A DNA stretch of 64,000 bases from positions 806,001 to 870,000 of the forward strand of contig NC_020520.1 of assembly GCF_000348785.1 (NCBI RefSeq), given 5' to 3'. Position numbers and translations under genes: made by a program. This DNA is from Ilumatobacter coccineus YM16-304 (lineage in GTDB: Bacteria > Actinomycetota > Acidimicrobiia > Acidimicrobiales > Ilumatobacteraceae). Of this stretch, positions 217-46,770 are shown one piece after another (position 1 is the stretch's first letter; each line of letters opens with the position of its first letter). The notes under the pieces were generated by a model. The model was not told where the DNA came from and made no database searches. It saw nothing but the letters and a program-made list of their open reading frames with translations.

Positions 217-3200
217 ATGGCGCAAGTAGCGGGGGTGAGCGAGAGCGATCTCGATGGCAACCGTCTCGTCGTCGATGTCTTCGGGCCGACGGTCGTGCGA
301 GTCGATGGTCGGCCCGTCGAGCTCGGTCGCAAGCAGGTTCGTCAGCTGGTCGCCGCGTTCGCTGTTCGGCGTGACTGGGTCTCGGCTGATGCGCTGATCG
401 ATCATCTCTGGGCCGACGCTCTGCCGGCCCACCCGCGCAAGGCGCTGAACGTCGCGCTCTCTCGTCTTCGGTCTGCACTGGGCGGTCTCGGCGAACGTCT
501 CGAAGTGGCGGGCAACGACTATCGACTCCGCACGGATTCGGTCGACGTCGAGCGGTTCACCGAACTCATCGAATCGGCGCGAGGGCTCGATCGACGGGCA
601 GCGGTCGAGGCGTACGAGGAGGCACTCGCACTCTGGACGGCCCCGCCGTTCTCCGACGAGTTCGAGTCTCCGGCGGTGGTCGCTCGACGGCTCAGCCTCG
701 AAGAACTCCGCTGGTTCGCGACCGTTCGTCTCGCTGAGCTGTGTAACGAGCTCGGCGAACCCGAGCGGGCCGTCGAAGTCTCCGCCCGCCTCGTCGACGA
801 CAGCACGGTCCGCGAGCGAGCGGTCATCGCGCATGCGACGGGGCTCGCGATGCTCGGCCGGAAATCGGAGGCGCTCTCGATGGTCGCCGCTGCGGTCAGC
901 GGGCTCCGTGACCAGCTGGGCCTCGAACCGTCGCCAGGGTTGCTCGCCACCGAGCAGGCGCTGCTCGCCGAGAGCTTCGAACTCGAGGCAGGCTCGGTGA
1001 AGCGGGTCAGGCCCGACACCGGTGTGTTCGTGGGGAGAGCCGGTGAGCTCGAGACGTTGAAGGCGGTCGAGCCTGGGCGAAGCATCTCGGTGATCGCCGA
1101 GGCGGGCACCGGAAAGACGGCGCTCCTCGACCGTTTCGGTGAGCTGGTGGTGGACGCTGGTGGCGTGGTGGCTCGGGTCGACGTCGTGGCGACTCCGGAG
1201 CGCCCGCTCGACACGATCGCCCACCTGTGCCTCGCTCTGTGCGAGTTGCCGCCGCCATCGGGCGAGCTCGACACCACGGGTGAGTTCGCTGCGGCACTCG
1301 CGAGGATCTGCCCCGAACTCGGGATCCCACGGTCGGGTTCGCTGACTCGCGACGCACTCTTCGACGACCTCACCCGATTCGTCGAACGGCGCGGCCGTCA
1401 AGCCGTGATCATCGTCGATGACGCGCATTGGATCGACAGCGGATCGGCCGAGGTGCTGTCTCGGCTCATCCATCGAGGTCGGCTCGCCATCGTGGTCGGC
1501 TTGCGTCCGGTTGACGACCACCGCTTCGACTTCCTGCAGGTCGCCGACGAGTCGCCGGTGGAGCGCGCTGACGACGCACCGGCCGGTCGTTGCGAACCGC
1601 TGCATCTGCAGCCCGTGGAGCGGAGCGATGTGGTGGCGCTCGTGGCCAGCCGCTCCACGCGAGCGGTCGACGACGCGTTCATCGATGATCTCATTCGTGC
1701 GTCGGGCGGCAACACGCTGTTTCTGCGGTTGCTGATCGACCGCTGGGTCGAAGGACGGGCGTCCGACGACGAGTTGCCGTCGTCGATCCTGGTCACCGTC
1801 AGCGAACGCCTCGATCTGTTGGCGAAGTCGGTCGTCGACACGCTGCAGGTCGCTGCCGCACTCGGCTCGACCTTCGAACTGCACACGATCCGCCAACTCC
1901 GGCCGAACGTCGACGCCGACCTCCCGGCCGCAGTGGCTGCCGGCATCATCCGCGTCGACGCGGCGTCCGAATCGGCATCGTTCGTCCACGCGGTGGTCGC
2001 CGACGCGTGCTACCAATTGCTCGGCGAAGGCCGACGGATCGCGATCCACGAGGACATCGCCTTCGTGCTCGAGGGCGACCGAGCCGCCCAGGCAGAGATC
2101 GCTCGCCACCATGTCGCTGCGGCGCCGCTCGATCCCGAACGGGCTGTGTGGACGAGCATCCGAGCAGCGTCGGAGTTCATCGTCGGTTTCGACTGGGAAA
2201 CTGCCGCCCAGCATCTCGACACTGCGGCGTCATTGGTCGACGAACTCGACCTCGACGACGTGTCACTCCGTGCTCACGTGCTCGTTCGGCGCGGCGCGGT
2301 GGGTCGCGCACTGTCGTCGACCGACTATCTCCACGACCTCTTCCACGGCGCCGAGTTGGCGCGAGAGGCCGGCGACGACGAACTGTTCGTCGTGGCGGTC
2401 ACCGAGATGTGTGGCCACGGCCAGACCACCCGCGCCGGCGATCTCGACCCGCGAGTGGCCGGTCTGCTCGATGAAGCGCTCAGCCTCTCGATCGCCCCGG
2501 CGCTTCGAGCCGAGCTGTGCGCGGCGAGCGTTCCGCTGTTCTCCACGTCGAATCAGGCCGATCGCGGACGAGCGCTGTATCACGAAGCCTGGCGCATCGC
2601 TCGCGACCTCGGGGACACGTTCGTCGAGTCGGCAGTCATCGGCCACGCCCATCTCGGCTTCGCCCATCCCGACGACTTCGAGTTGCTGGCGGGAGCGGCC
2701 CAACGGATGACCGACATCGCGGGGAACGACGCGGACCTGATCTGGGAAGCGGCGTTCGTGCGTTTCGAGTGTTCGGTCATCAGAGGTGATGCGGCGGCGG
2801 CGCAGCAGGCGATCGACGAGATGCGTCTGTACACCGGAAAGGTCGGTCGTCGACCGCGCGACTTCGGTATGGCGTTCAGTGAGAGCGCACACTCGCGACT
2901 GCGCGGTGAACTGGAAGCGGCCGAGCGGCACGCAGAGTCCGCGCTGTCGATCGGGCTCGAGCGCTTCGACGCGACCTGGGCGCTCACGGTGTACGGGCTG
3001 CTCCTGCTCGGTATTCGTCGAGAGCAAGGGAGAGCCGGCGAACTCGAGGCGGCGATCGCCGAGATGCTCGCCGGACAGCCGGACTATCTGCCCTTCCACT
3101 CCGTCGCATCGGTGGTGGCGGTGGAGAGTGGTGAGCTCGATGTGGCGCGCGCTCACATCGACGTGCTCGCCCGCGACCGATTCGGTGGGATCGTGCGCGA

Positions 3201-3489
3201 CGTGCACTACACATCGGTGATTCTCCTCGCGGCGCCAGCGGTCGCATCGGTCGGCGAACAAGGCGAGATCGAGGCGCTGGAGGCGTTGCTGCGTCCCTTC
3301 TCGGGGCGAATGAGCTGGAACGGTGCTGCCAGCGATGGAGCGATCGACGGCGCCCTCGCGCTGCTGGCCTCCGCACGTGGCGACGCCTCGGCGGCGGAGC
3401 GCTACCGGCTCGCCGCAGCGTCGCTCGAGTCTCGATTCAGACAATTGCGTTCGGAGATCTCGACGTCGGCCCAGACGCACGCGAGTTGA
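217..3489 (+). CDS. SARP-type transcriptional regulator with AAA ATPase domain
   Basis: A 1090-residue regulator. Residues 17-105 are an OmpR-type winged helix of the SARP class (FGPTVVRVDGRPVEL, then KALNVALSRLR). Residues 110-255 are the helical bacterial transcriptional activator (BTAD) domain. FVGRAGELE near 271 opens an AAA/NACHT-like ATPase with Walker A EAGTGKT (295-301) and Walker B IIVDDAHW (about 399-406). The rest is alpha-helical, TPR-like sequence, as in large signal-integrating regulators that couple ATP binding to DNA binding. No ligand or target can be named. ATG at 217 has no clear Shine-Dalgarno; GTG at 235 is an alternative that keeps the DNA-binding domain intact. Its last 88 bp overlap the 3' end of the convergent lipase gene. 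Confidence 0.85.
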   Translation: MAQVAGVSESDLDGNRLVVDVFGPTVVRVDGRPVELGRKQVRQLVAAFAVRRDWVSADALIDHLWADALPAHPRKALNVALSRLRSALGGLGERLEVAGNDYRLRTDSVDVERFTELIESARGLDRRAAVEAYEEALALWTAPPFSDEFESPAVVARRLSLEELRWFATVRLAELCNELGEPERAVEVSARLVDDSTVRERAVIAHATGLAMLGRKSEALSMVAAAVSGLRDQLGLEPSPGLLATEQALLAESFELEAGSVKRVRPDTGVFVGRAGELETLKAVEPGRSISVIAEAGTGKTALLDRFGELVVDAGGVVARVDVVATPERPLDTIAHLCLALCELPPPSGELDTTGEFAAALARICPELGIPRSGSLTRDALFDDLTRFVERRGRQAVIIVDDAHWIDSGSAEVLSRLIHRGRLAIVVGLRPVDDHRFDFLQVADESPVERADDAPAGRCEPLHLQPVERSDVVALVASRSTRAVDDAFIDDLIRASGGNTLFLRLLIDRWVEGRASDDELPSSILVTVSERLDLLAKSVVDTLQVAAALGSTFELHTIRQLRPNVDADLPAAVAAGIIRVDAASESASFVHAVVADACYQLLGEGRRIAIHEDIAFVLEGDRAAQAEIARHHVAAAPLDPERAVWTSIRAASEFIVGFDWETAAQHLDTAASLVDELDLDDVSLRAHVLVRRGAVGRALSSTDYLHDLFHGAELAREAGDDELFVVAVTEMCGHGQTTRAGDLDPRVAGLLDEALSLSIAPALRAELCAASVPLFSTSNQADRGRALYHEAWRIARDLGDTFVESAVIGHAHLGFAHPDDFELLAGAAQRMTDIAGNDADLIWEAAFVRFECSVIRGDAAAAQQAIDEMRLYTGKVGRRPRDFGMAFSESAHSRLRGELEAAERHAESALSIGLERFDATWALTVYGLLLLGIRREQGRAGELEAAIAEMLAGQPDYLPFHSVASVVAVESGELDVARAHIDVLARDRFGGIVRDVHYTSVILLAAPAVASVGEQGEIEALEALLRPFSGRMSWNGAASDGAIDGALALLASARGDASAAERYRLAAASLESRFRQLRSEISTSAQTHAS

Positions 3490-4754
3490 CCACCGGTTCC
3501 GAAGGTCTCGTCGAGCCACTCGAGCCCTGCCGCGATCTCCGCAGGGTCGAGCGTTCGCCTGACTTCGAGCGTCGAGATGAACCCGACCACGATCGCGAGG
3601 TCGGCCACGGCGTAGTTCATCGAGGTGAGGCTCATCGAGCGGACTCGGGACTGCAGTTCGGCGAGTTTGCGTCGCTCCAACGAGTCGTCGACGACGGGTT
3701 GTTTCGCGGCGCTCGATCCGTCGCGGAAGGTGCGTGACGGGTCGGGCGCGGCCGGCGGCAGCACGTTCGGCGACCAGAGCCGCGCGTACTGCCCCGGGCC
3801 CAGATCGACGAGGTCGTTCACGTAGGTCGCTTCGAGGCTGACCTTCAGCCAGCGCCCGAGCAGCGAGAGCATGCTCACCGACTGGAGCGACTGTGCGATC
3901 CTCGAGTTGCTCGTCATGTGTCGTACCGCGTCGACGGCGAACCATTCGCCGCCGCTGCGCCAGGTGTCTTCCGGTCGTCGGCGAATCGTGGTCGACACCT
4001 GCTCGCCGAAACTGCCCGACACGCCGCCGTCGACGAGCACCTCGCGGCGCAGTGCACGCGGCGCCCGAACGTGCCCGGTTCCCGGCAGCGCCGTCGATGC
4101 CTTCGCCGCGTCGGCGAGGCTGTAGCCCGAACCGAGGGCAGTGCCGTAGACCGGCTCGAACGGCTCCCCGCCAGCCGTGAAGTAATAGGGGAGCCCAGAG
4201 GCGAGACCCGAGGCACAGATCGTGTGACGTCGGGTGGACGCAACGCTGTCGAGCGGTGTCGTCCGACCCTGCGTGACGACGTCGACGACATCGCGCTGGT
4301 AGGCGCCGGCGAGCCGGCGCACGAGATTGAGTCCGAGTGGGAAGATCGAGATGCCGATCACGACGGACCACGGCGACTGCGACATCGCTTGCGGCCCGAC
4401 CACGCCGAGAGCGGCGAGGAGCAGCCAGCCGAGCGCCGCGAGTGTGACGACGCCGAGCAGCGCGATGATGCATCGCTTGGTCGTGCGATGCGGAAGCAGT
4501 CGGTCGTGTCCGATCCGGTTGCGGACCTCGGCGAGTCGGGCGGCGGCCTCGGCGGGTGTGTCGGTCGCTCCGGCGAGCGCGGCGTTGAGGATCGAGCCGC
4601 CGCTGACCGACACGATCTCGTCGATGTCGTCCCACTTGTCTGGTCGCCGTCCGACGCCGTGCTCAGGGAGTCCGTCCGACCACAGGAAGTAGCTGATCGC
4701 CCCGATCGATCCGAGCGTCGCTCGATGGCTGCCTCCCGAGAGCAGCAGCCTCAT
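3402..4754 (-). CDS. Patatin-like phospholipase with two internal membrane segments
   Basis: A 450-residue protein. The patatin features are a glycine-rich oxyanion strand at the extreme N-terminus (LLLSGGSHRATLG), a nucleophile elbow SVSGG with Ser51 (first Gly of GxSxG replaced by Ser) and a DGG dyad motif with Asp242. The family are Ser-Asp dyad lipid acyl hydrolases. Between Ser and Asp lie two hydrophobic segments, about 96-117 and 128-147, with a basic stretch before the first, so the enzyme is probably membrane anchored. I chose ATG 4754 because the oxyanion motif starts there; upstream in-frame codons add a low-complexity basic tail. It faces the CHAT/sigma gene across 128 bp and overlaps the SARP gene tail-to-tail by 88 bp. 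Substrate unknown. Confidence 0.8.
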   Translation of the reverse strand: MRLLLSGGSHRATLGSIGAISYFLWSDGLPEHGVGRRPDKWDDIDEIVSVSGGSILNAALAGATDTPAEAAARLAEVRNRIGHDRLLPHRTTKRCIIALLGVVTLAALGWLLLAALGVVGPQAMSQSPWSVVIGISIFPLGLNLVRRLAGAYQRDVVDVVTQGRTTPLDSVASTRRHTICASGLASGLPYYFTAGGEPFEPVYGTALGSGYSLADAAKASTALPGTGHVRAPRALRREVLVDGGVSGSFGEQVSTTIRRRPEDTWRSGGEWFAVDAVRHMTSNSRIAQSLQSVSMLSLLGRWLKVSLEATYVNDLVDLGPGQYARLWSPNVLPPAAPDPSRTFRDGSSAAKQPVVDDSLERRKLAELQSRVRSMSLTSMNYAVADLAIVVGFISTLEVRRTLDPAEIAAGLEWLDETFGTGGQLACVWADVEISERNCLNRDSSDAAASR

Positions 4755-4882
4755 CGCACACCTGAGTGGTTGCCCATCAGGGGATTGTTGCTCATCGACG
4801 CGTGTCAACCGAACCGGTCGTCGCCACGTCAGTGTGGGCCGATGAACCCGAACGTACCGCCGATCTTCTACCTTCTTGCAGA

Positions 4883-6019
4883 ATGACCGACACAACCGCA
4901 CACCCAGGTGTCGCTCCGCCGGACCCTGCGCCGGTGTTGCTCGCCGGCTCGTCGCCGGTCGACAAGGTCGAGTTGGCGATCGATGCCGAGTTCGACCTGA
5001 TCGAGAACTCGGTCCAGCTCGGAAGCCACCGACAGCACCTCCGGATCGTGCTGAGTCGAGACACCGAAGCTGGCGAACTCGTCGCCAAGATGCTCGGCGA
5101 GAAGCCGTCGGTCGTGCACTTCTCGGGTCACGGCAATCAGCAGTCTGAGCTGTTCTTCGAGAACGAGCATGGCCAGTCGGTGGCGGTCGGGGTCGATCAG
5201 CTCTCGAAGATGTTCGCCGGGTTCAGCGGAGTCGTCCGGTGTGTCGTCTTGAACGCGTGCTATTCGGTGCCGCAGGCCGAGGCGATCGCGCACCACGCCG
5301 ACTGCGTCGTCGGCATGTCGGACCGCGTGTCGGATGCAGCGGCGCACACGTTCGCGACGAACTTCTACAAGGCGATGGCGAGCGGACGCGACGTGGCGAC
5401 CTCGTTCGACCTCGCCGTTGTGAACATCGATCTCGCCGGCATTCCGGAGGCGAAGACGCCGGCGTTGTTCGGTCGGGAGCGGGCCGCGATGCTCGTGTTC
5501 GACGGACAGCAGGTCGACGACAAGGAGGTCACGACCTCGGTCGTCGCCGGGATCGAAGCGATCGCGCGGCAGCTGTACGAGTCGGAGTACCTGTCGTTGG
5601 TGCGGCTCGCGAGCACGATCATCGACAGCGTGTCGGTCTGCGAGGGGATCGTGCAGGAGGCGTTCGTCGAGATCCTCACGACCGAGATGAGCCCGATCGT
5701 GACGGGCGTGGACGGTGTGCTCGCCGTGCTCCGGAAGCTGGTGCTCGACATCGCACAGGATCGTCGAGACGTCGCTCAGCAGTTGTTCCCGGCCCAGCTT
5801 CCTCCGACCGCGACCTCGGCGTCCGACGAGGTGACCAAGGTGCTGCGGGCGATCCAGTCGCTCGCACAGGACGAGGCTCAAGCGCTGGTGCTGTCGCAGT
5901 TGTCGAAGCTCGACCCGGCGACGATCTCGTCGACACTCGGCATGGAGCAGGGCCATCTCGACGAGACGATCAGAATGGCACTCGACAACGTCGGCTCGCT
6001 GCTCGAGGCACTCGGATGA
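4883..6019 (+). CDS. CHAT-domain protease fused to an ECF sigma-factor-like C-terminus
   Basis: A 378-residue protein in two halves. Residues ~15-210 read as a CHAT (caspase-like) peptidase: SVVHFSGHG with His83, then VVLNACYS with Cys126, the expected His/Cys dyad after two beta strands. Residues ~228-295 resemble sigma-70 region 2 of ECF factors (ARQLYESEYLSLVRLA, GIVQEAFVEIL). Residues ~317-376 resemble region 4 (LRAIQSLAQDEAQALVLSQL, a helix-turn-helix around ISSTLGMEQGHLDETI, then LDNVGSLLEAL). The sigma assignment is my alignment from memory of family consensus. Start ATG 4883 is used because translation upstream is low-complexity and would run across the divergent promoter. The stop overlaps the next ATG (ATGA), indicating coupling to the membrane protein. 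It could instead be a CHAT protein with an unrelated helical tail. Confidence 0.72.
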   Translation: MTDTTAHPGVAPPDPAPVLLAGSSPVDKVELAIDAEFDLIENSVQLGSHRQHLRIVLSRDTEAGELVAKMLGEKPSVVHFSGHGNQQSELFFENEHGQSVAVGVDQLSKMFAGFSGVVRCVVLNACYSVPQAEAIAHHADCVVGMSDRVSDAAAHTFATNFYKAMASGRDVATSFDLAVVNIDLAGIPEAKTPALFGRERAAMLVFDGQQVDDKEVTTSVVAGIEAIARQLYESEYLSLVRLASTIIDSVSVCEGIVQEAFVEILTTEMSPIVTGVDGVLAVLRKLVLDIAQDRRDVAQQLFPAQLPPTATSASDEVTKVLRAIQSLAQDEAQALVLSQLSKLDPATISSTLGMEQGHLDETIRMALDNVGSLLEALG

Positions 6020-7245
6020 GAAGCGACGAAGAGCTCCGACCGGTGATGGCCCGCATTCGTGCGGCCGTCGACGAGCGCACCGCTGGCGTCGTCGTGTCAC
6101 CGCCACCGTTCGAGACGATCCTCGCACGCGCCCAGGGCCAACCGCCCACGCCGCCCACCGCCGCACCGCTGCCGCTTCCCGCCGTCGCAAGCGGGCCCGG
6201 TGGTACCGCTGCAGGGACCGGCGCTGGAGGGACCGGTGCCGCAGGGGCGGCGGTGGGCGCGAGCACGCTGCCGGCCGCCTCGTTCGTTCCGGTCCCCTCG
6301 CTCGGGGGCGCCCGCGTCGTCAGGAATCGCATCGACGCCCCGGCGCCAGAGACCTCGGCTTCGGTGCCGAGCGGCACCGGGGGCCGTCGCCGCGGATCGC
6401 TCGCGGTGAAACTGCTCGTCCCGGTCGTGGCGGTCGCCGCAGCCGCAGTGTTCTTCCTGGTCCGGGGCGGGCAAGAAGACAGCACCGACGCACAGCCGGC
6501 GACGGACGGCGTTCGAGACGCAGTGCAGCCCGACGTCGACACGACGGCCGAAGCGCCCGACGACGGCGATCCTGCGGAACAGGACGACGAGGCCGAAGCA
6601 CCAGACGACGGCGGTCCGGCGGAACAGGATGACGAGGCTGGTGCCGACGCCGATCGAGATGCGCTGGGAGATCCCGGTGATGAACCCGCGGGTGACGACG
6701 TCGTTGCCGCGTCCGACGATGCCGCGAACGACGTCCAGCCGGGCGTCGAGTCGGCGGACGATCCGGTCGTCGTCGACGCCGAGCCGGCCGTGGAGCCGGT
6801 CGTGGAAGAACCATCCTCGAGCGAACCGTCCGCCGAGGAGCCGGTCGGCGAAGACGCCCCGGCGCCGACGGCCGAAGAGCAACCGGCGCCGAACACCGAG
6901 GCTGCGTTGGACGAACGACTGCAGCGCCGAGCCGAGATGTTCATCACCTCGCTGGTCGATGTCGATGCTGCGGCGTACGAGACGTTCTTCGGCCCGCAAT
7001 GCGATCGGGAACAGGCCGGCCGCATCGTGGATGACTTCGATCGCTACGCCGAGATGTGGGCAGGCTTCCGTCCGCGGATCACGTCGTTCATCTCGGGGCC
7101 AGACAGCGGAACGACCAGCCTCGTGTATTTCATCGAGGAGGCGGGAGGGGACTTGGGAGCGTCCCTGCCGTGGGAGTTCATCGACGATGAGTGGTATCCC
7201 GATACCTGCGACGTCAACGCCACGGTGTTCGGCCGGGGAGGCTGA
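6016..7245 (+). CDS. Single-pass membrane protein, possible anti-sigma partner of the CHAT/sigma protein
   Basis: A 409-residue protein starting in an ATGA overlap with the CHAT/sigma gene. Residues 1-45 are a short, charged, probably cytoplasmic segment (ELRPVMARIRAAVDE, then PPPFETILARA) like the leading part of actinobacterial proteins encoded after ECF sigma genes. A Pro/Ala/Gly linker follows, then a basic stop (RRRGS) and one transmembrane helix at about 129-149. Outside lies a long acidic, disordered-looking region (about 152-300) with a repeated APDDGxPAEQDDEA unit, and a compact C-terminal domain (about 303-409) with two Cys. No zinc-binding HxxxCxxC motif of the ZAS class is present. 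The topology and gene order fit a membrane anti-sigma or sensor; the role is inference. Confidence 0.6.
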   Translation: MRSDEELRPVMARIRAAVDERTAGVVVSPPPFETILARAQGQPPTPPTAAPLPLPAVASGPGGTAAGTGAGGTGAAGAAVGASTLPAASFVPVPSLGGARVVRNRIDAPAPETSASVPSGTGGRRRGSLAVKLLVPVVAVAAAAVFFLVRGGQEDSTDAQPATDGVRDAVQPDVDTTAEAPDDGDPAEQDDEAEAPDDGGPAEQDDEAGADADRDALGDPGDEPAGDDVVAASDDAANDVQPGVESADDPVVVDAEPAVEPVVEEPSSSEPSAEEPVGEDAPAPTAEEQPAPNTEAALDERLQRRAEMFITSLVDVDAAAYETFFGPQCDREQAGRIVDDFDRYAEMWAGFRPRITSFISGPDSGTTSLVYFIEEAGGDLGASLPWEFIDDEWYPDTCDVNATVFGRGG

Positions 7246-7444
7246 GCTTGCAGGCTGTGCGGCCTGACTCGAAACCCATCTCATGCAGCCGACACCGACC
7301 GGCGATTCGCGTCGGCGAGCGACGGGTCGACGGTGCGTCGTACCGCTTTCACGTGATTCGCGTCAACCGATCGACGAGGTGCGGCGTCTGTGTTGCTGAT
7401 TCGGAGCCGATGGGGCTCCGTTCGACTGAAGGGCACAGATCATC

Positions 7445-8548
7445 ATGACGAAGAACAGCGCGAGCGCCAGTCGGCTGCGAAGCCGATGGGCAGCGATCGG
7501 GGCAGCAGTGGCCGTCACCATCGGGGCTGGTGGACTCGGCCTCGTCAACGCTCAGAGTGCAACGAGCGACGGCCTCACCTACGTCCCGCTCACACCATGT
7601 CGCCTCGCCGACTCTCGGCCCGGAACCGACAACGTCGGGCCGTACGACGAGCGGATCGGAGCGACCACGCAGAAATTCAGCTTCGACGGCCGCGGCACCA
7701 GCGGCGACTGCGCGCTGCCGGCGAACGCCGAGGCACTCACCATGAACGTGACCGGGATCCAGCCCGACGCGAACAGCTTCTACACGCTGTATCCGGAGGA
7801 TCTGGCATCGCCACCGCTCGCCGCGCACCTCGTGCTCGGCGCGCTGACGGTGACCGAGAACGAAGTGACGGTCACGCTCGACGACGACGGGGAGTTCACC
7901 CTCTTCAACAACGCCGGGACCAGTCACGTGGTCATCGACGTGCTCGGAGCCTTCGTCGGAGCCGAGCGCACATCGTGCGACACGACGGCGATCGTGCGAG
8001 GCACCGCCGGGTTCTACATCGGCGACGCGGGTGTGTTCGTCACGTTCGATGATCCGTTGCCGACGGCCACCTACACGCTCTTGATCCAGACGAACAACAC
8101 CGGTGGCTATTCGACGACGACCGAGGCGACGTACTTCAACCCGTTGAAGAAGACGGCGACCGGTTTCCAGATTCAGCACAAGACCACCGACGACGACACG
8201 CCGCTCGCGGTCGACCAGAGCGTCGGACTCGATTGGGTGGTCATGTACGACGGTGACGAGTGTGCGACTTCGGACTCGTCCACGATCGTGCGCGGCACGA
8301 CCGGCTTCGGCATCGGTGATGCCGGTGTCGTGGTCACGTTCGCCGATCCACTGCCCGATGCCGACTACAGCCTGTTCATCCAGCCGAACAACAACGGCGG
8401 GTACTCGACGACGACCGAGGCGACGTACTTCAACCCGTTGAAGAAGACGGCGACCGGCTTCCAGATTCAGCACAAGACCACCGACGACGACACGCCGCTG
8501 GCCGTCGACCAGAACGTCGGCATCGACTGGATGGTCGTCTACGACTGA
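7445..8548 (+). CDS. Secreted protein: one surface module plus two H-type-lectin-like repeats
   Basis: A 367-residue exported protein with a twin-basic n-region (SRLRSRW), a hydrophobic core (IGAAVAVTIGAGGLGLV) and probable signal peptidase cleavage after NAQSA. Residues ~45-172 form one copy of the surface module described for the proteins at 18242, 32594 and 59644: LTPCRLADSR, FDGRGTSGDC, MNVTGIQP, FNNAGTSHVVIDVLGAF. Residues ~177-270 and 275-367 are two copies of a ~98-residue unit (IVRGTxGFxIGDAG, then STTTEATYFNPLKK) with an H-type-lectin or phage-receptor-binding beta-sandwich flavour; that fold call is weak. The signal peptide and module are paralogous to the next gene. A 60-bp hairpin element lies 36 bp past the stop. 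Function unknown, probably a surface or secreted binding protein. Confidence 0.7.
   Translation: MTKNSASASRLRSRWAAIGAAVAVTIGAGGLGLVNAQSATSDGLTYVPLTPCRLADSRPGTDNVGPYDERIGATTQKFSFDGRGTSGDCALPANAEALTMNVTGIQPDANSFYTLYPEDLASPPLAAHLVLGALTVTENEVTVTLDDDGEFTLFNNAGTSHVVIDVLGAFVGAERTSCDTTAIVRGTAGFYIGDAGVFVTFDDPLPTATYTLLIQTNNTGGYSTTTEATYFNPLKKTATGFQIQHKTTDDDTPLAVDQSVGLDWVVMYDGDECATSDSSTIVRGTTGFGIGDAGVVVTFADPLPDADYSLFIQPNNNGGYSTTTEATYFNPLKKTATGFQIQHKTTDDDTPLAVDQNVGIDWMVVYD
7972..8545. repeat. Internal 294-bp tandem duplication
   Basis: Two copies of a 98-codon unit offset by exactly 294 bp (for example CGGTTTCCAGATT at 8161 and CGGCTTCCAGATT at 8455). Stretches around 8110-8215 and 8404-8509 are nearly identical in DNA, while the first third of each unit has diverged. 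Confidence 0.85.
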
Positions 8549-8584
8549 TCCAACGGCGTCCTGACGTCGTTCAGGCCACCCCGT

Positions 8585-8644: not shown

Positions 8645-8735
8645 GGTGCGCCGTGTCAACCAGTTCGACGCGGTCGGCGTCTGGAGAGGTGACGGGGCGA
8701 TCAGCGCCTCGCACGACGAACCGGGAGACACGATC

Positions 8736-9965
8736 ATGCTTGCAACGAGAACGACGAGGGCGAGGTGGGCTGCACTCGGCGCAGCCGTCGCGATCACCGC
8801 CGGTGCGGGAGGGCTGACGTTCGTCAGCGCAGCCGACGGCGACGGCGGCAGCACCTTCGTGCCGATCACGCCGTGCCGCATCGGAGACAGCCGGTCGGCG
8901 CCGAACAACGTCGGTCCGTACGAAGGTCCGATCGGGCCGGCGGCGGAGTACACGTACGACGGACGTGGGACGTCGGGTGAGTGCGAACTCCCCGACGACG
9001 CCACGGCGCTGTCGGTCAACCTCACATCGGCAGCGGCGTCGGCGCGGAGCTTCTACACGGCGTACCCCACCGGTGAGACGCGGCCGCTCGCGGCACATCT
9101 GGTCCCTGGCGCAGGAACACCGGTGACCGAGAACGGCGTCCAGGTCGCGCTCTCCGACGACGGGAAGTTCACGGTCTACAACAACGCCGGCACGAGCCAC
9201 GTCATCATCGACGTGCTCGGTGTGTTCGTGCCGAGCTCCGGCGGCGGGGTCGCTGGCCCAGCCGGTCCCGCTGGACCCGCTGGACCGGCCGGACCCGAGA
9301 AGGAACTGTTCTCGCCCGACGGCGACGGCGACGGTTTCGGTGGCATCTACGTCAACGCCGGGCAGATCCAGCTCGCCGTGACGGCGCCGAGCGGGTTCGG
9401 GCCGATCGGCGACTGCGACGACTTCGACCCGGCGATCAACCCGGACGGCACCGAAGTACTCGACACGTACCAGGACGAGGACTGTGACGGCTTCCAGCTG
9501 CAGACGCTCTACACCGACGGCGATGGTGACTACTGGGGCGTGGGCGCGGGCACCCCGACCGAGGTCGACACCAACACCGGACCGCCGGCCGGGCTGACCT
9601 CCAACTTCGGTGACTGCGATGACGCCGATCCGTCGATCAACCCGAACGCGTTCGACGTTCCCGGCGACGGGATCGACCAGAACTGCGACTCGTACAACGA
9701 GCCGCTCAGCGACGGGGACGGCGACCTCGAGAACCTCGGCCTCGACCACTACTTCGGGAGCCAGTGCAACGACGGTGTCGACAACGACGGCGACGGCAAC
9801 GTCGACTACGACTTCGGCTTCGGCGGTGGAGACGGCGAATGCGACAGTGAGTTCGATGCGTTCGAAGGCGATTGCGACGATGGCGATCCGACCGTGAACT
9901 CGGCGGCGACCGAGACCGCTGGGGACTTCGTCGATCAGAACTGCAACGGCGACGACGACACCTGA
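8736..9965 (+). CDS. Secreted protein with surface module, collagen-like linker and MopE-type metal-binding motifs
   Basis: A 409-residue exported protein; signal peptide MLATRTTRARW plus an AAVAITAGAGG core, cleavage near FVSAADG. Residues ~40-165 are a surface module paralogous to that of the upstream gene (ITPCRIGDSR, YDGRGTSGEC, YNNAGTSHVIIDVLGVF). A short collagen-like stretch of AGP triplets (about 174-187) leads to a C-terminal half with three GDCDDxDPxxN motifs, each followed by a D/GxxxDQNC or DxDCDG segment. These match the putative metal-binding motif of MopE-like and thrombospondin-type-3-like proteins, with Cys pairs and dense Asp for Ca or Cu binding. ATG 8736 is chosen because the signal peptide starts there. 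It lies between the two copies of the 60-bp hairpin element. Confidence 0.75.
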   Translation: MLATRTTRARWAALGAAVAITAGAGGLTFVSAADGDGGSTFVPITPCRIGDSRSAPNNVGPYEGPIGPAAEYTYDGRGTSGECELPDDATALSVNLTSAAASARSFYTAYPTGETRPLAAHLVPGAGTPVTENGVQVALSDDGKFTVYNNAGTSHVIIDVLGVFVPSSGGGVAGPAGPAGPAGPAGPEKELFSPDGDGDGFGGIYVNAGQIQLAVTAPSGFGPIGDCDDFDPAINPDGTEVLDTYQDEDCDGFQLQTLYTDGDGDYWGVGAGTPTEVDTNTGPPAGLTSNFGDCDDADPSINPNAFDVPGDGIDQNCDSYNEPLSDGDGDLENLGLDHYFGSQCNDGVDNDGDGNVDYDFGFGGGDGECDSEFDAFEGDCDDGDPTVNSAATETAGDFVDQNCNGDDDT

Positions 9966-44742: not shown

Positions 44743-46770
44743 GTGATCAACAAACGCCGTATTTTTGCGGGTGCGCTTGCACTCGGATTGACCGCGGCCG
44801 CCTGTGGCGGCAGCGACGAGCCCGAGGCGGAATCCCCCGCCGAGAGCAGTGAAGAGACCCCCGCCGAGAGCGGCGAGGAGAGCCCTGCCGAGGAGGCTGC
44901 CGGCGAACTCTCGGGTGACATCAACATCTCGGGTTCCTCGACGGTCGAGCCGGTGTCGGTTCGTGTGCAGGAACTGTTCAACGACATCGAGCCGAACGTG
45001 AACATCACGGTCGACGGTCCGGGTACCGGTGACGGTTTCCAGTTGTTCTGTGAAGGCGAGACCGACATCTCGGACGCCTCACGTGCGATCAAGGACGAAG
45101 AAGCTGCGGCCTGCGCCGAAGCCGGCATCGAGTTCACCGAGATCCAGGTCGGTATCGATGGTCTGTCGGTGTTGACGTCGGCGAACAACACCGCCGTCGA
45201 GTGCCTCAGCTACGAGCAGATCTACGGCCTCGTCGGTCCCGAGTCGTCGGGCTTCGGCAACTGGAGCGACGCCAACGCGCTCATCACCGAACTGGGTGGC
45301 GAGGGCAACCTCCCCGATGCCGAGCTCGAGATCTACGGTCCGGGTGAAGAGTCGGGCACGTTCGACAGCTTCATCGAGATCGTCCTCGAAGATCTCGCCG
45401 ACGAGCGTGGCCAGGAAGCGATCACCCGTCCCGACTACAACCCGTCGGCTGACGACAACGTCATCCTGTCGGGTGTCGAAAGTTCCGACACGAGCTTCGG
45501 CTGGGTCGGCTACGCCTTCGCCGAGAACGCCGAGAACGTCACGCTGCTCGACGTCGACGGTGGCGACGGTTGCGTGACCCCGACGGCCGAGACGATTGCG
45601 TCGGGTGAGTACCCGATCAGCCGTCCGCTGTTCATCTACGTGAACAACGCCAAGGCTGCCGAGTCGCCCGCACTGCAGGCGTTCGTCGACTTCTACGTCG
45701 CCGACGGTCTCGACACCGCGGTCGCCGAAGTCGGCTACGTCGAACTCGCCGACGACGCCAAGGCTGCGGTTCGCGCCGCCTGGAGCGGTGACGCTCCGGC
45801 CGCCACGGAAGAAGAGCCCATGGAAGAAGACGCCATGGAAGAAGAGCCCATGGAAGAAGAGGCCGCAGCCGACCTGAGCGGCCTGTCGGGCGAGATCACG
45901 ATCTCGGGTTCCTCGACGGTCGAGCCGGTGTCGGTTCGTGTGCAGGAACTGTTCAATGACCAGGCTCCCGACGTGAACATCACGGTCGATGGTCCGGGTA
46001 CCGGTGACGGTTTCCAGTTGTTCTGTGAAGGTGAGACCGACATCTCGGACGCCTCGCGTGCCATCAAGGACGAGGAAGCTGCGGCCTGCGCCGAAGCCGG
46101 CATCGAGTTCACCGAGATCCAGGTCGGTATCGATGGTCTGTCGGTGTTGACCTCGGCGAACAACACCGCCGTCGAGTGCCTGAGCTACGAGCAGATCTAC
46201 GGCCTCGTCGGCCCGGAATCGACCGGCTTCGGCAACTGGAGCGACGCGAACGCGCTGGTGACCGAGCTGGGTGGCGAGGGCAACCTCCCCGATGCCGAGC
46301 TCGAGATCTACGGTCCGGGTGAAGAGTCGGGCACGTTCGACAGCTTCATCGAGATCGTCCTCGAAGACCTCGCCGACGAGCGTGGCCAGGAAGCGATCAC
46401 TCGTCCCGACTACAACCCGTCGGCTGACGACAACGTCATCCTGTCGGGTGTCGAAGGTTCCGACACGAGCTTCGGCTGGGTCGGTTTCGCCTTCGCCGAG
46501 AACGCCGAGAACGTCACGTTGCTCGACGTCGACGGTGGCGACGGTTGCGTGACCCCGACGGCCGAGACGATTGCGTCGGGTGAGTACCCGATCAGCCGTC
46601 CGCTGTTCATCTACGTGAACAACGCCAAGGCTGCCGAGTCCGAAGCCCTGCAGGCGTTCGTCGACTTCTACCTCGCCGACGGTCTCGACCAGGCCGTGGC
46701 CGAAGTCGGATACGTCGAACTGAGCGACTCGGCCAAGGCCGAAGTCCGCAGCGGTGCGGAAGCCATCTGA
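44743..46770 (+). CDS. pstS: Phosphate ABC transporter substrate-binding lipoprotein with two tandem PstS domains
   Basis: A 675-residue lipoprotein (lipobox TAAAC after RRIFAGALALGLT). A spacer of Glu/Ser/Pro/Ala repeats precedes PstS domain 1 (residues ~60-345). A very acidic Glu/Met linker (EEEPMEEDAMEEEP, ~350-380) joins a second PstS domain (~385-672). Both domains carry the phosphate-binding landmarks GSSTVEPVS, the GPGTGDGF turn, ISDASRAIKDEE and GPGEESGTFDSF. The usual protein has one domain (~320-370 residues), so this is a fusion. The two halves are almost identical in protein and DNA. GTG 44743 is chosen for its AGGAG and because the signal peptide begins there. It feeds PstCAB. 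Confidence 0.9.
   Translation: MINKRRIFAGALALGLTAAACGGSDEPEAESPAESSEETPAESGEESPAEEAAGELSGDINISGSSTVEPVSVRVQELFNDIEPNVNITVDGPGTGDGFQLFCEGETDISDASRAIKDEEAAACAEAGIEFTEIQVGIDGLSVLTSANNTAVECLSYEQIYGLVGPESSGFGNWSDANALITELGGEGNLPDAELEIYGPGEESGTFDSFIEIVLEDLADERGQEAITRPDYNPSADDNVILSGVESSDTSFGWVGYAFAENAENVTLLDVDGGDGCVTPTAETIASGEYPISRPLFIYVNNAKAAESPALQAFVDFYVADGLDTAVAEVGYVELADDAKAAVRAAWSGDAPAATEEEPMEEDAMEEEPMEEEAAADLSGLSGEITISGSSTVEPVSVRVQELFNDQAPDVNITVDGPGTGDGFQLFCEGETDISDASRAIKDEEAAACAEAGIEFTEIQVGIDGLSVLTSANNTAVECLSYEQIYGLVGPESTGFGNWSDANALVTELGGEGNLPDAELEIYGPGEESGTFDSFIEIVLEDLADERGQEAITRPDYNPSADDNVILSGVEGSDTSFGWVGFAFAENAENVTLLDVDGGDGCVTPTAETIASGEYPISRPLFIYVNNAKAAESEALQAFVDFYLADGLDQAVAEVGYVELSDSAKAEVRSGAEAI
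44926..46767. repeat. 975-bp internal duplication within pstS
   Basis: ATCTCGGGTTCCTCGACGGTC at 44926 recurs at 45901, an exact 975-bp (325-codon) period. Identity extends almost to the gene end, with scattered synonymous changes and a few replacements (for example DIEPN/DQAPD, SSGFG/STGFG). The segment between, encoding the acidic linker, is not duplicated. Confidence 0.9.

Follow-up and report, generated by a model that had tools for sequence, protein, structure and literature searches.

We identified a predicted CHAT protease joined in one chain to a degenerate sigma factor-like domain in a 64,000-nucleotide (nt) window of the Ilumatobacter coccineus YM16-304 genome (the whole stretch analysed here; G000:C1:806001-870000 of a single contig of 4,830,181 bases). 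The fusion protein of 378 amino acids is encoded at window positions 4883-6019 on the forward strand, and its assignment rests on its translation, Pfam and NCBIfam profiles, full-length relatives, and an AlphaFold2 model. The reading that we favour, tentatively and in the knowledge that it may well prove wrong, is that the degenerate extracytoplasmic function (ECF) sigma domain serves as the docking domain of a cytosolic CHAT protease, which would cleave the linker of the membrane protein encoded by the next gene, with lipid enzymes as the output. Three copies of the fusion were compared, namely those of the window genome (G000), a genome of the same genus (G064), and a genome of another family (G153).

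The CHAT half of the fusion

The N-terminal half was confirmed as a CHAT domain with a His-Cys dyad and a caspase-like fold, and is thus a predicted protease. The domain comprises residues 16-210 (4928-5512, forward strand), with His83 at 5129-5131 and Cys126 at 5258-5260. The fusion matches the Pfam CHAT family (PF12770) with an E-value of 9.4e-9 and 35.5 bits, above the cut-off of 24, and the other two fusions score 34.2 and 45.8 bits; this is the only PF12770 match in the whole G000 genome. The nearest solved structure to the CHAT half of the model is SAVED-CHAT 8tl0 (Z 26.1 over 196 residues), whose GHG and NAC motifs align in sequence with His83 and Cys126. Both residues are identical in all three fusions, and the dyad proposed in an initial annotation of this DNA therefore holds. 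In the AlphaFold2 model of the fusion (pLDDT 87.9, pTM 0.60), the CHAT domain is alpha/beta and the C-terminal half is helical.

The open frame of the fusion runs upstream to a GTG at 4766; we prefer the ATG at 4883 as the start, since residue 2 is where the alignment with the G064 relative begins. Full-length copies of the fusion are present in G064 (58% identity) and in G153 (34%), so the joining of the two domains is more than a chance event. No SAVED or Lon family was matched in the fusion by the Pfam, NCBIfam, or PADLOC profiles; the PADLOC SAVED_CHAT match is partial, covering only positions 347-456 of 498 in the profile, i.e. the part that holds CHAT and not the SAVED sensor domain. No TPR family was found among the Pfam matches, and no receiver-domain family among the Pfam and NCBIfam matches. 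As a side observation, residues 2-197 of the model, i.e. the CHAT part, match PDB entry 8rw5 (DdvA, titled transmembrane anti-sigma factor) with a Z of 14.7, a score equal to or barely higher than those of the neighbouring gingipain and caspase entries. This match hints at another link between caspase-like folds and anti-sigma factors; in a literature search, none of the papers listed carried the name DdvA.

The sigma-like C-terminal half

The C-terminal half contains a sigma2-like part (residues 229-301, 5567-5785) and a sigma4-like part (residues 314-377, 5822-6013), both on the forward strand. Its relation to sigma factors, as claimed in the initial annotation, is borne out by profile and by predicted fold. 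The best profile, TIGR02983 (SigE-family sigma, NCBIfam), gives an E-value of 1.1e-8 with the whole fusion and 1.4e-9 with the C-terminal half alone, and a sequence match to SigL (E-value 7.3e-6) is independent of the AlphaFold2 model. Structure comparison of the modelled half with SigW, CnrH, RpoE, and SigG1 gave Z scores of 14.0-16.1, the highest being those of SigW (Z 16.1, 148 residues, root-mean-square deviation 4.2) and CnrH (Z 15.0, 146 residues, root-mean-square deviation 3.5), although the alignment behind the model, 19 sequences of which ten are ordinary ECF sigma factors, favours a sigma-like fold. Four of the five sigma entries are structures with an anti-sigma factor, i.e. SigW-RsiW (Z 16.1 and 15.9), CnrH-CnrY (15.0), and RpoE-NepR (14.5).

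All three fusions stay below the curated cut-offs of the Pfam and NCBIfam sigma models. The C-terminal half scores 38.0 bits against a cut-off of 141.55 for TIGR02983, 23.4 against 42.9 for TIGR02937, and 18.2 against 25.7 for Sigma70_r4_2. As a yardstick, the ordinary ECF sigma factor encoded in the same gene cluster scores 61 bits with TIGR02937 and 50.8 with Sigma70_r4_2, both over the cut-offs, and 97.6 with TIGR02983; the last cut-off is strict, and this ordinary ECF fails it too.

The segments that would contact promoter DNA differ from those of ordinary ECF sigma factors. The net charge of the recognition helix (region 4.2) is -3, -3, and -1 in the three fusions, compared with +2 to +5 (mean 3.1) in 31 ordinary ECFs, so that it is negative in 3/3 fusions and in 0/31 ordinary ECFs. 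The net charge of region 2.3-2.4 is also low, at 0, +1, and +3, compared with +3 to +9 (mean 5.6), but here the gap is incomplete, the +3 fusion equalling the lowest of the 31. The ordinary ECFs were found by the profile of the fusion or by the fusion as query, after removal of duplicates and of matches covering fewer than 90 profile positions; they are related rather than independent sequences, nearly all from related genomes and one from G000.

Conservation is likewise uneven. The G000 and G064 copies share 68% identity in CHAT (133/195), 76% in region 2.1-2.2 (28/37), 44% in 2.3-2.4, 58% in 4.1, and 23% in the recognition helix. Of the five sigma segments compared, only the loop between sigma2 and sigma4 (21%) is less conserved than this helix. 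Between G000 and G153, the corresponding values are 39, 35, 33, 32, and 14%. The strong conservation of region 2.1-2.2 is thus confined to the genus, whereas conservation of the recognition helix is poor against G064 and G153 alike. Taken with the charge loss, this is, by analogy with PhyR, the sequence pattern of a sigma domain retained for protein contacts. We read the sigma half as a degenerate, PhyR-like pseudo-sigma that would act as a docking domain.

The coupled membrane protein

The fusion gene overlaps by four bases the gene of a single-pass membrane protein of 409 amino acids (6016-7245, forward strand), which has an anti-sigma-like N-terminus (6052-6135) and a transmembrane segment at 6406-6462. 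The coupling by ATGA (6016-6019), already described in the initial annotation, recurs as GTGA in G064 and ATGA in G153, and the membrane gene is thus linked in all three genomes, though broken by stops in G153. Neither of the outcomes named in the initial annotation as refuting its proposal was obtained, the C-terminal half having a predicted sigma2/sigma4 fold and the membrane gene being linked. A downstream frame was obtained for 30 of the 31 ordinary ECFs. A strongly hydrophobic segment is present in 27 of these 30 frames, and in 24 of these 27 cases the frame and the ECF gene overlap, indicating that a coupled membrane partner is the norm for this type of sigma factor. Locus L010 was left out, its downstream frame having been picked wrongly by the automatic procedure, and its true partner is visible otherwise. 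Two of the 27 partners, in loci L050 and L032, were dropped for an unfit early hydrophobic stretch or gap, leaving 25 ordinary partners for comparison.

The N-terminus of the window partner scores 12.9 bits with a profile of these 25 partners, a value reached by 0 of 999 reported shuffles (1000 made), and in this respect the partner resembles those of ordinary ECFs, with weak or no resemblance in the other two copies. Since at least the window copy looks anti-sigma-like, the roles first proposed for it (sensor, anti-sigma, or cleavage substrate) are all plausible. The short cytoplasmic N-terminus attributed to it was an error: the transmembrane segment starts only at residue 131, and at residues 162 and 111 in G064 and G153, respectively, compared with residues 38-71 (median 46) in the ordinary partners. 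The segments of the fusion partners therefore start 65 to 116 residues past the ordinary median. The cytosolic linker before the segment is rich in Gly, Ala, and Pro in the partners of G000 and G064, and it is a plausible substrate of the CHAT domain. The long exterior is acidic, as annotated, in the window copy, but that of G064 is rich in Ser and Thr.

The gene cluster around the fusion

The initial annotation described the fusion and its partner as a pair and overlooked that the cluster extends on both sides of it and past the left edge of the window. In G000, the order begins left of the window with an ordinary ECF (longest frame G000:C1:804825-805547) and a GDPD gene (longest frame 805474-806190), followed by an AfsR-like regulator, a patatin-like gene, the fusion, and the partner. 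The GDPD of G000 is over the Pfam cut-off (E-value 1.7e-8). The AfsR/SARP-type regulator (217-3489, forward strand), identified with Pfam and an AfsR model, combines a DNA-binding domain, BTAD, and an AAA_16 ATPase (BTAD, E-value 2e-20; AAA_16, 3.1e-15; Trans_reg_C, 0.001, under the cut-off; AfsR model, 1.4e-16, far under the cut-off). The patatin-like protein (3402-4754, reverse strand), divergent from the fusion, carries a hydrophobic insert and falls just under the Pfam Patatin cut-off (E-value 6.9e-6, 26.8 bits; cut-off 27.7). No solved relative of it was found by sequence, and its structure model (pLDDT 49.5) was too poor for use. Patatin and GDPD are probable lipid-cutting enzymes.

The identical six-gene set is present in G064, with the ECF inverted, while G153 contains the patatin gene, a shortened AfsR-like frame, the fusion, and an interrupted partner frame. 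The patatin and AfsR-like genes thus adjoin the fusion in 3/3 genomes (two genes being damaged in one, G153), and GDPD and the ordinary ECF join them in two. Relatives of the AfsR-like gene are present in all four other loci that hold patatin, including two in which no CHAT fusion is visible. In G224, the ECF, GDPD, AfsR-like, and patatin genes are followed by 1,719 N. In G490, an AfsR-like gene lies beside a single frame joining GDPD-like and patatin-like parts and beside an ECF that is not matched by that of G000. This joined frame (locus L051, 7498-9813, reverse strand; 772 amino acids) matches GDPD in tblastn (E-value 2e-19), although Pfam shows no GDPD there, and it suggests that the two lipid enzymes work together. 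Gene calls in the loci of the relatives and left of the window were made with a crude frame caller (longest frames and GC content by codon position), and their starts are approximate.

No transmembrane gene was found directly downstream of the ordinary ECF of the cluster in G000 or G064 (L036 without a row). In the PADLOC search, no known defence family was matched in the module beyond the partial SAVED_CHAT match and a weak PtuA match to the ordinary ECF. The standard motifs of GDPD enzymes are HRG, ExD, and HD; the GDPD at locus L055 (15475-16191, reverse strand) carries SHAGD, QVDV, and MHAV, and its activity may be altered.

Distribution

The module is rare. Full-length fusions were found in 2/150 genomes of a family draw (G000 and G064; any match in 34), 2/397 of an order draw (G000 and G153; any match in 109, nearly all to the ECF part, G064 not being among the draw matches), and 1/396 of a phylum draw (G000 itself; any match in 9), in overlapping samples in which only part of the first-look candidates were scored (e.g. 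4/26 in G000), so that misses are possible. The fusion is present in 2/10 genomes of the genus and in one of two in the family of G153. Patatin was found in 4/394 genomes of the order, 1/296 of the phylum (G000 itself), and 1/19 in the family of G224, and in the genus it is present in 2/10 genomes, the same two as the fusion. Among plasmids, 66 records match the fusion query, none covering 80% of it at one place.

Several further candidates were rejected as fusions. The frames of G079, G007, G750, and G720 combine CHAT with coiled-coil-like or other parts and no sigma, the matches in G621, G857, and G841 show the CHAT part only, and a Rickettsiales locus matches only residues 305-364 of the query, i.e. 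the sigma part. G200 encodes a stand-alone CHAT protein of 234 amino acids; at this locus (L038, 9749-11104), the protein is close to the CHAT part of the fusion, and a GDPD-like gene follows just after on the opposite strand.

A promoter-like motif and downstream genes

A search for a shared promoter motif upstream of 4883 had been suggested, and a promoter-like motif was found in the window. The pattern GTCAACC-N16-CGTC occurs on the forward strand at 4804-4830, 7362-7388, and 8655-8681, with CAACC beginning 77, 81, and 79 nt before the ATG codons at 4883 (the fusion), 7445, and 8736, respectively; these distances assume ATG starts, and in two of the three cases the open frame continues upstream of the ATG, for 8736 to a GTG at 8583. 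ECF promoters typically have AAC at -35 and CGTC at -10. The genome of G000 contains 15 occurrences of the pattern and 5 of its reverse, and three sites on one strand lie here within 3,851 bases; random placing of 8 forward sites gives such a cluster in about 8.5e-5 of trials, a figure that is a guide rather than a test because the motif was picked after the matches had been seen. The remaining twelve sites lie mostly within coding-like frames; that of L067 is ambiguous, and that of L069 is located at the end of one such frame, 48 nt before another start. A looser pattern, CAACC-N15-17-CGTC, has 10 matches in the window against 4.6 expected, and 3 of 100 shuffles have as many. With up to two mismatches allowed, the motif was not found upstream of the genes for the ordinary ECF and GDPD; a single two-mismatch site on the forward strand of L055 (16257-16283) falls within the start of the AfsR-like gene.

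The two downstream genes behind the motif, possibly co-regulated with the fusion, encode predicted secreted proteins (judged by eye) with similar N-terminal parts. That at 7445-8548 (forward strand) matches no Pfam family over the cut-off, and that at 8736-9965 (forward strand) contains MopE-type metal-binding motifs (Pfam Cu-binding_MopE, E-value 2.2e-21). Elsewhere in the window, an identical 25-base stretch occurs at 45438-45462 and 46413-46437, 975 bases apart and with similar flanks; it is probably a coding repeat.

Proposed mechanism and alternatives

The docking reading is based on the predicted sigma2/sigma4 fold and its similarity to sigma factors solved mostly with their anti-sigma factors, the negative recognition helix, the contrast in identity between region 2.1-2.2 and that helix, the overlap with the partner gene in 3/3 genomes, the score of the N-terminus of the window partner, the late transmembrane segment, and the lack of a transmembrane gene found directly behind the ordinary ECF in G000 and G064. 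The fusion would be a cytosolic CHAT protease whose C-terminal degenerate sigma docks and does not read promoters. As in PhyR, a surface shaped like a sigma factor would be offered to the anti-sigma-like N-terminus of the coupled partner, and this contact would keep the protease at the membrane. A signal, received through the outer domain of the partner or through activation of CHAT, would then cause the protease to cut a nearby target, most likely the long flexible cytosolic linker of the partner, with patatin as the main alternative. Cutting of the linker would set free what is bound to the partner, perhaps the ordinary ECF of the module, and the output would be the patatin/GDPD pair. A stronger version, in which a dead sigma docks the protease on a membrane anti-sigma and cutting of the stretched linker switches on a module that degrades membrane lipids, a bacterial counterpart of a death-protease pathway controlled by a sigma mimic, seems to us rather unlikely, if worth stating.

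Several observations weigh against the favoured docking reading. The N-terminus of the G064 partner is weak (11/1000 shuffles score as well) and that of G153 is not significant (120/974 reported shuffles). In the comparison with G153, region 2.1-2.2 (35%) shows no advantage in conservation over CHAT (39%), and the VQEAF of region 2.2, present in two copies and replaced by VKRAF in G153, also fits binding to RNA polymerase. The partner frame of G153 is broken by in-frame stops (L037, 11180-12100) and its AfsR-like frame is shortened (L037, 9014-9895), so that this copy may be decaying, or the broken frames may reflect an assembly error; neither GDPD nor a separate ordinary ECF was matched within the 20 kb taken beside the G153 fusion. 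In G224, the frame downstream of the ordinary ECF has a hydrophobic stretch near its start, and this ECF may thus have a partner of its own. In addition, a search upstream of the G064 and G153 fusion genes did not find the promoter-like motif, nor was a motif shared by all three fusion genes found.

The strongest of the alternatives, possible but well short of probable, retains the membrane docking and makes the patatin-like phospholipase the substrate; with this enzyme activated by CHAT, the module would be an effector that damages membranes or turns over lipids, and the AfsR-like ATPase protein would be its sensor or regulator. Phospholipase and GDPD form a sensible pathway. The patatin gene adjoins the fusion in 3/3 genomes and shares its two genomes in the genus, the protein has its own hydrophobic insert, the clusters of G000, G064, and G224 contain a GDPD-like gene, patatin shares a frame with a GDPD-like part in G490, and the distribution is patchy and rare in the draws. 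However, patatin and AfsR-like genes are also present in loci where no CHAT fusion is visible (in G490; G224 has its N gap there), the known defence families are limited to the partial SAVED_CHAT and weak PtuA matches, and the patatin model is too poor to be informative.

Docking of the pseudo-sigma on RNA polymerase (the beta' clamp) through region 2.2, bringing the protease to transcription or competing with sigma factors, appears improbable. Region 2.1-2.2 is the best conserved segment between G000 and G064, with VQEAF retained, but G153 has VKRAF instead, and a coupled membrane partner fits less well with such a role.

The initial annotation had proposed that one chain combines proteolysis with promoter choice. 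A protease and a sigma-derived domain do share the chain, and the predicted sigma2/sigma4 fold and profile similarity agree with a working sigma factor; promoter choice is not supported, because the positive charge of region 4.2 is lost in 3/3 fusions, region 2.3-2.4 has low charge, the helix is unconserved, and no curated sigma cut-off is reached, and we consider this reading very unlikely. Equally doubtful is a sigma half that is a relic of gene fusion with no present role, since although regions 2.3-2.4 and 4.2 diverge fast, the frame is retained in three genomes of two families and region 2.1-2.2 is at least as conserved as CHAT between G000 and G064.

Relation to known systems

The closest precedent for the sigma half is PhyR of the alphaproteobacterial general stress response, in which an ECF-like sigma2/sigma4 domain with degenerate promoter contacts mimics a sigma factor towards an anti-sigma factor (PMC4598750, PMC8103513, PMC8999054). 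The fusion likewise has a predicted sigma fold without promoter contacts, as judged by charge and conservation only, and mimicry is proposed by analogy. PhyR differs in carrying a receiver domain and in being degenerate also in its polymerase contacts, whereas the fusion has CHAT and its presumed anti-sigma is a membrane protein. The best profile of the fusion and its overlapping single-pass partner gene are shared with ordinary SigE-type (TIGR02983) ECFs, from which it differs by the CHAT domain, the loss of DNA-reading charge, and the long cytosolic linker of its partner.

Proteases tied to ECF sigma factors are described in several reports. In the Csx29/Csx30/CASP-sigma system of type III-E CRISPR, the CHAT protease Csx29 (TPR-CHAT) is linked to an ECF sigma factor and its inhibitor (PMC10028731). 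These three are distinct proteins there, with a DNA-binding sigma factor and a CRISPR RNA complex as the trigger, whereas here protease and pseudo-sigma form one chain. In CalpL/CalpT/CalpS, release of a sigma factor is under protease control (PMC11229360). SAVED-CHAT 8tl0 is the closest solved relative of the CHAT half, but the fusion has neither a SAVED nor a Lon match. CHAT genes occur in the neighbourhood of ECF54 (PMC8999054), and caspase/EACC2 loci contain ECF genes (PMC8195603); in both, CHAT or caspase and ECF are neighbouring genes, and the parts of these reports available to us describe no fusion to a discharged sigma factor. No account of a CHAT-sigma fusion emerged from literature searches, which covered few subscription papers.

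Sigma systems under protease control thus have precedents, as do sigma mimics, and a protease-mimic fusion, if the docking reading is true, would join both. A sigma-shaped surface would then serve as an address for proteolysis, and the module would offer a concrete, testable case, in which a predicted binding surface, a substrate linker, and output enzymes are encoded side by side.

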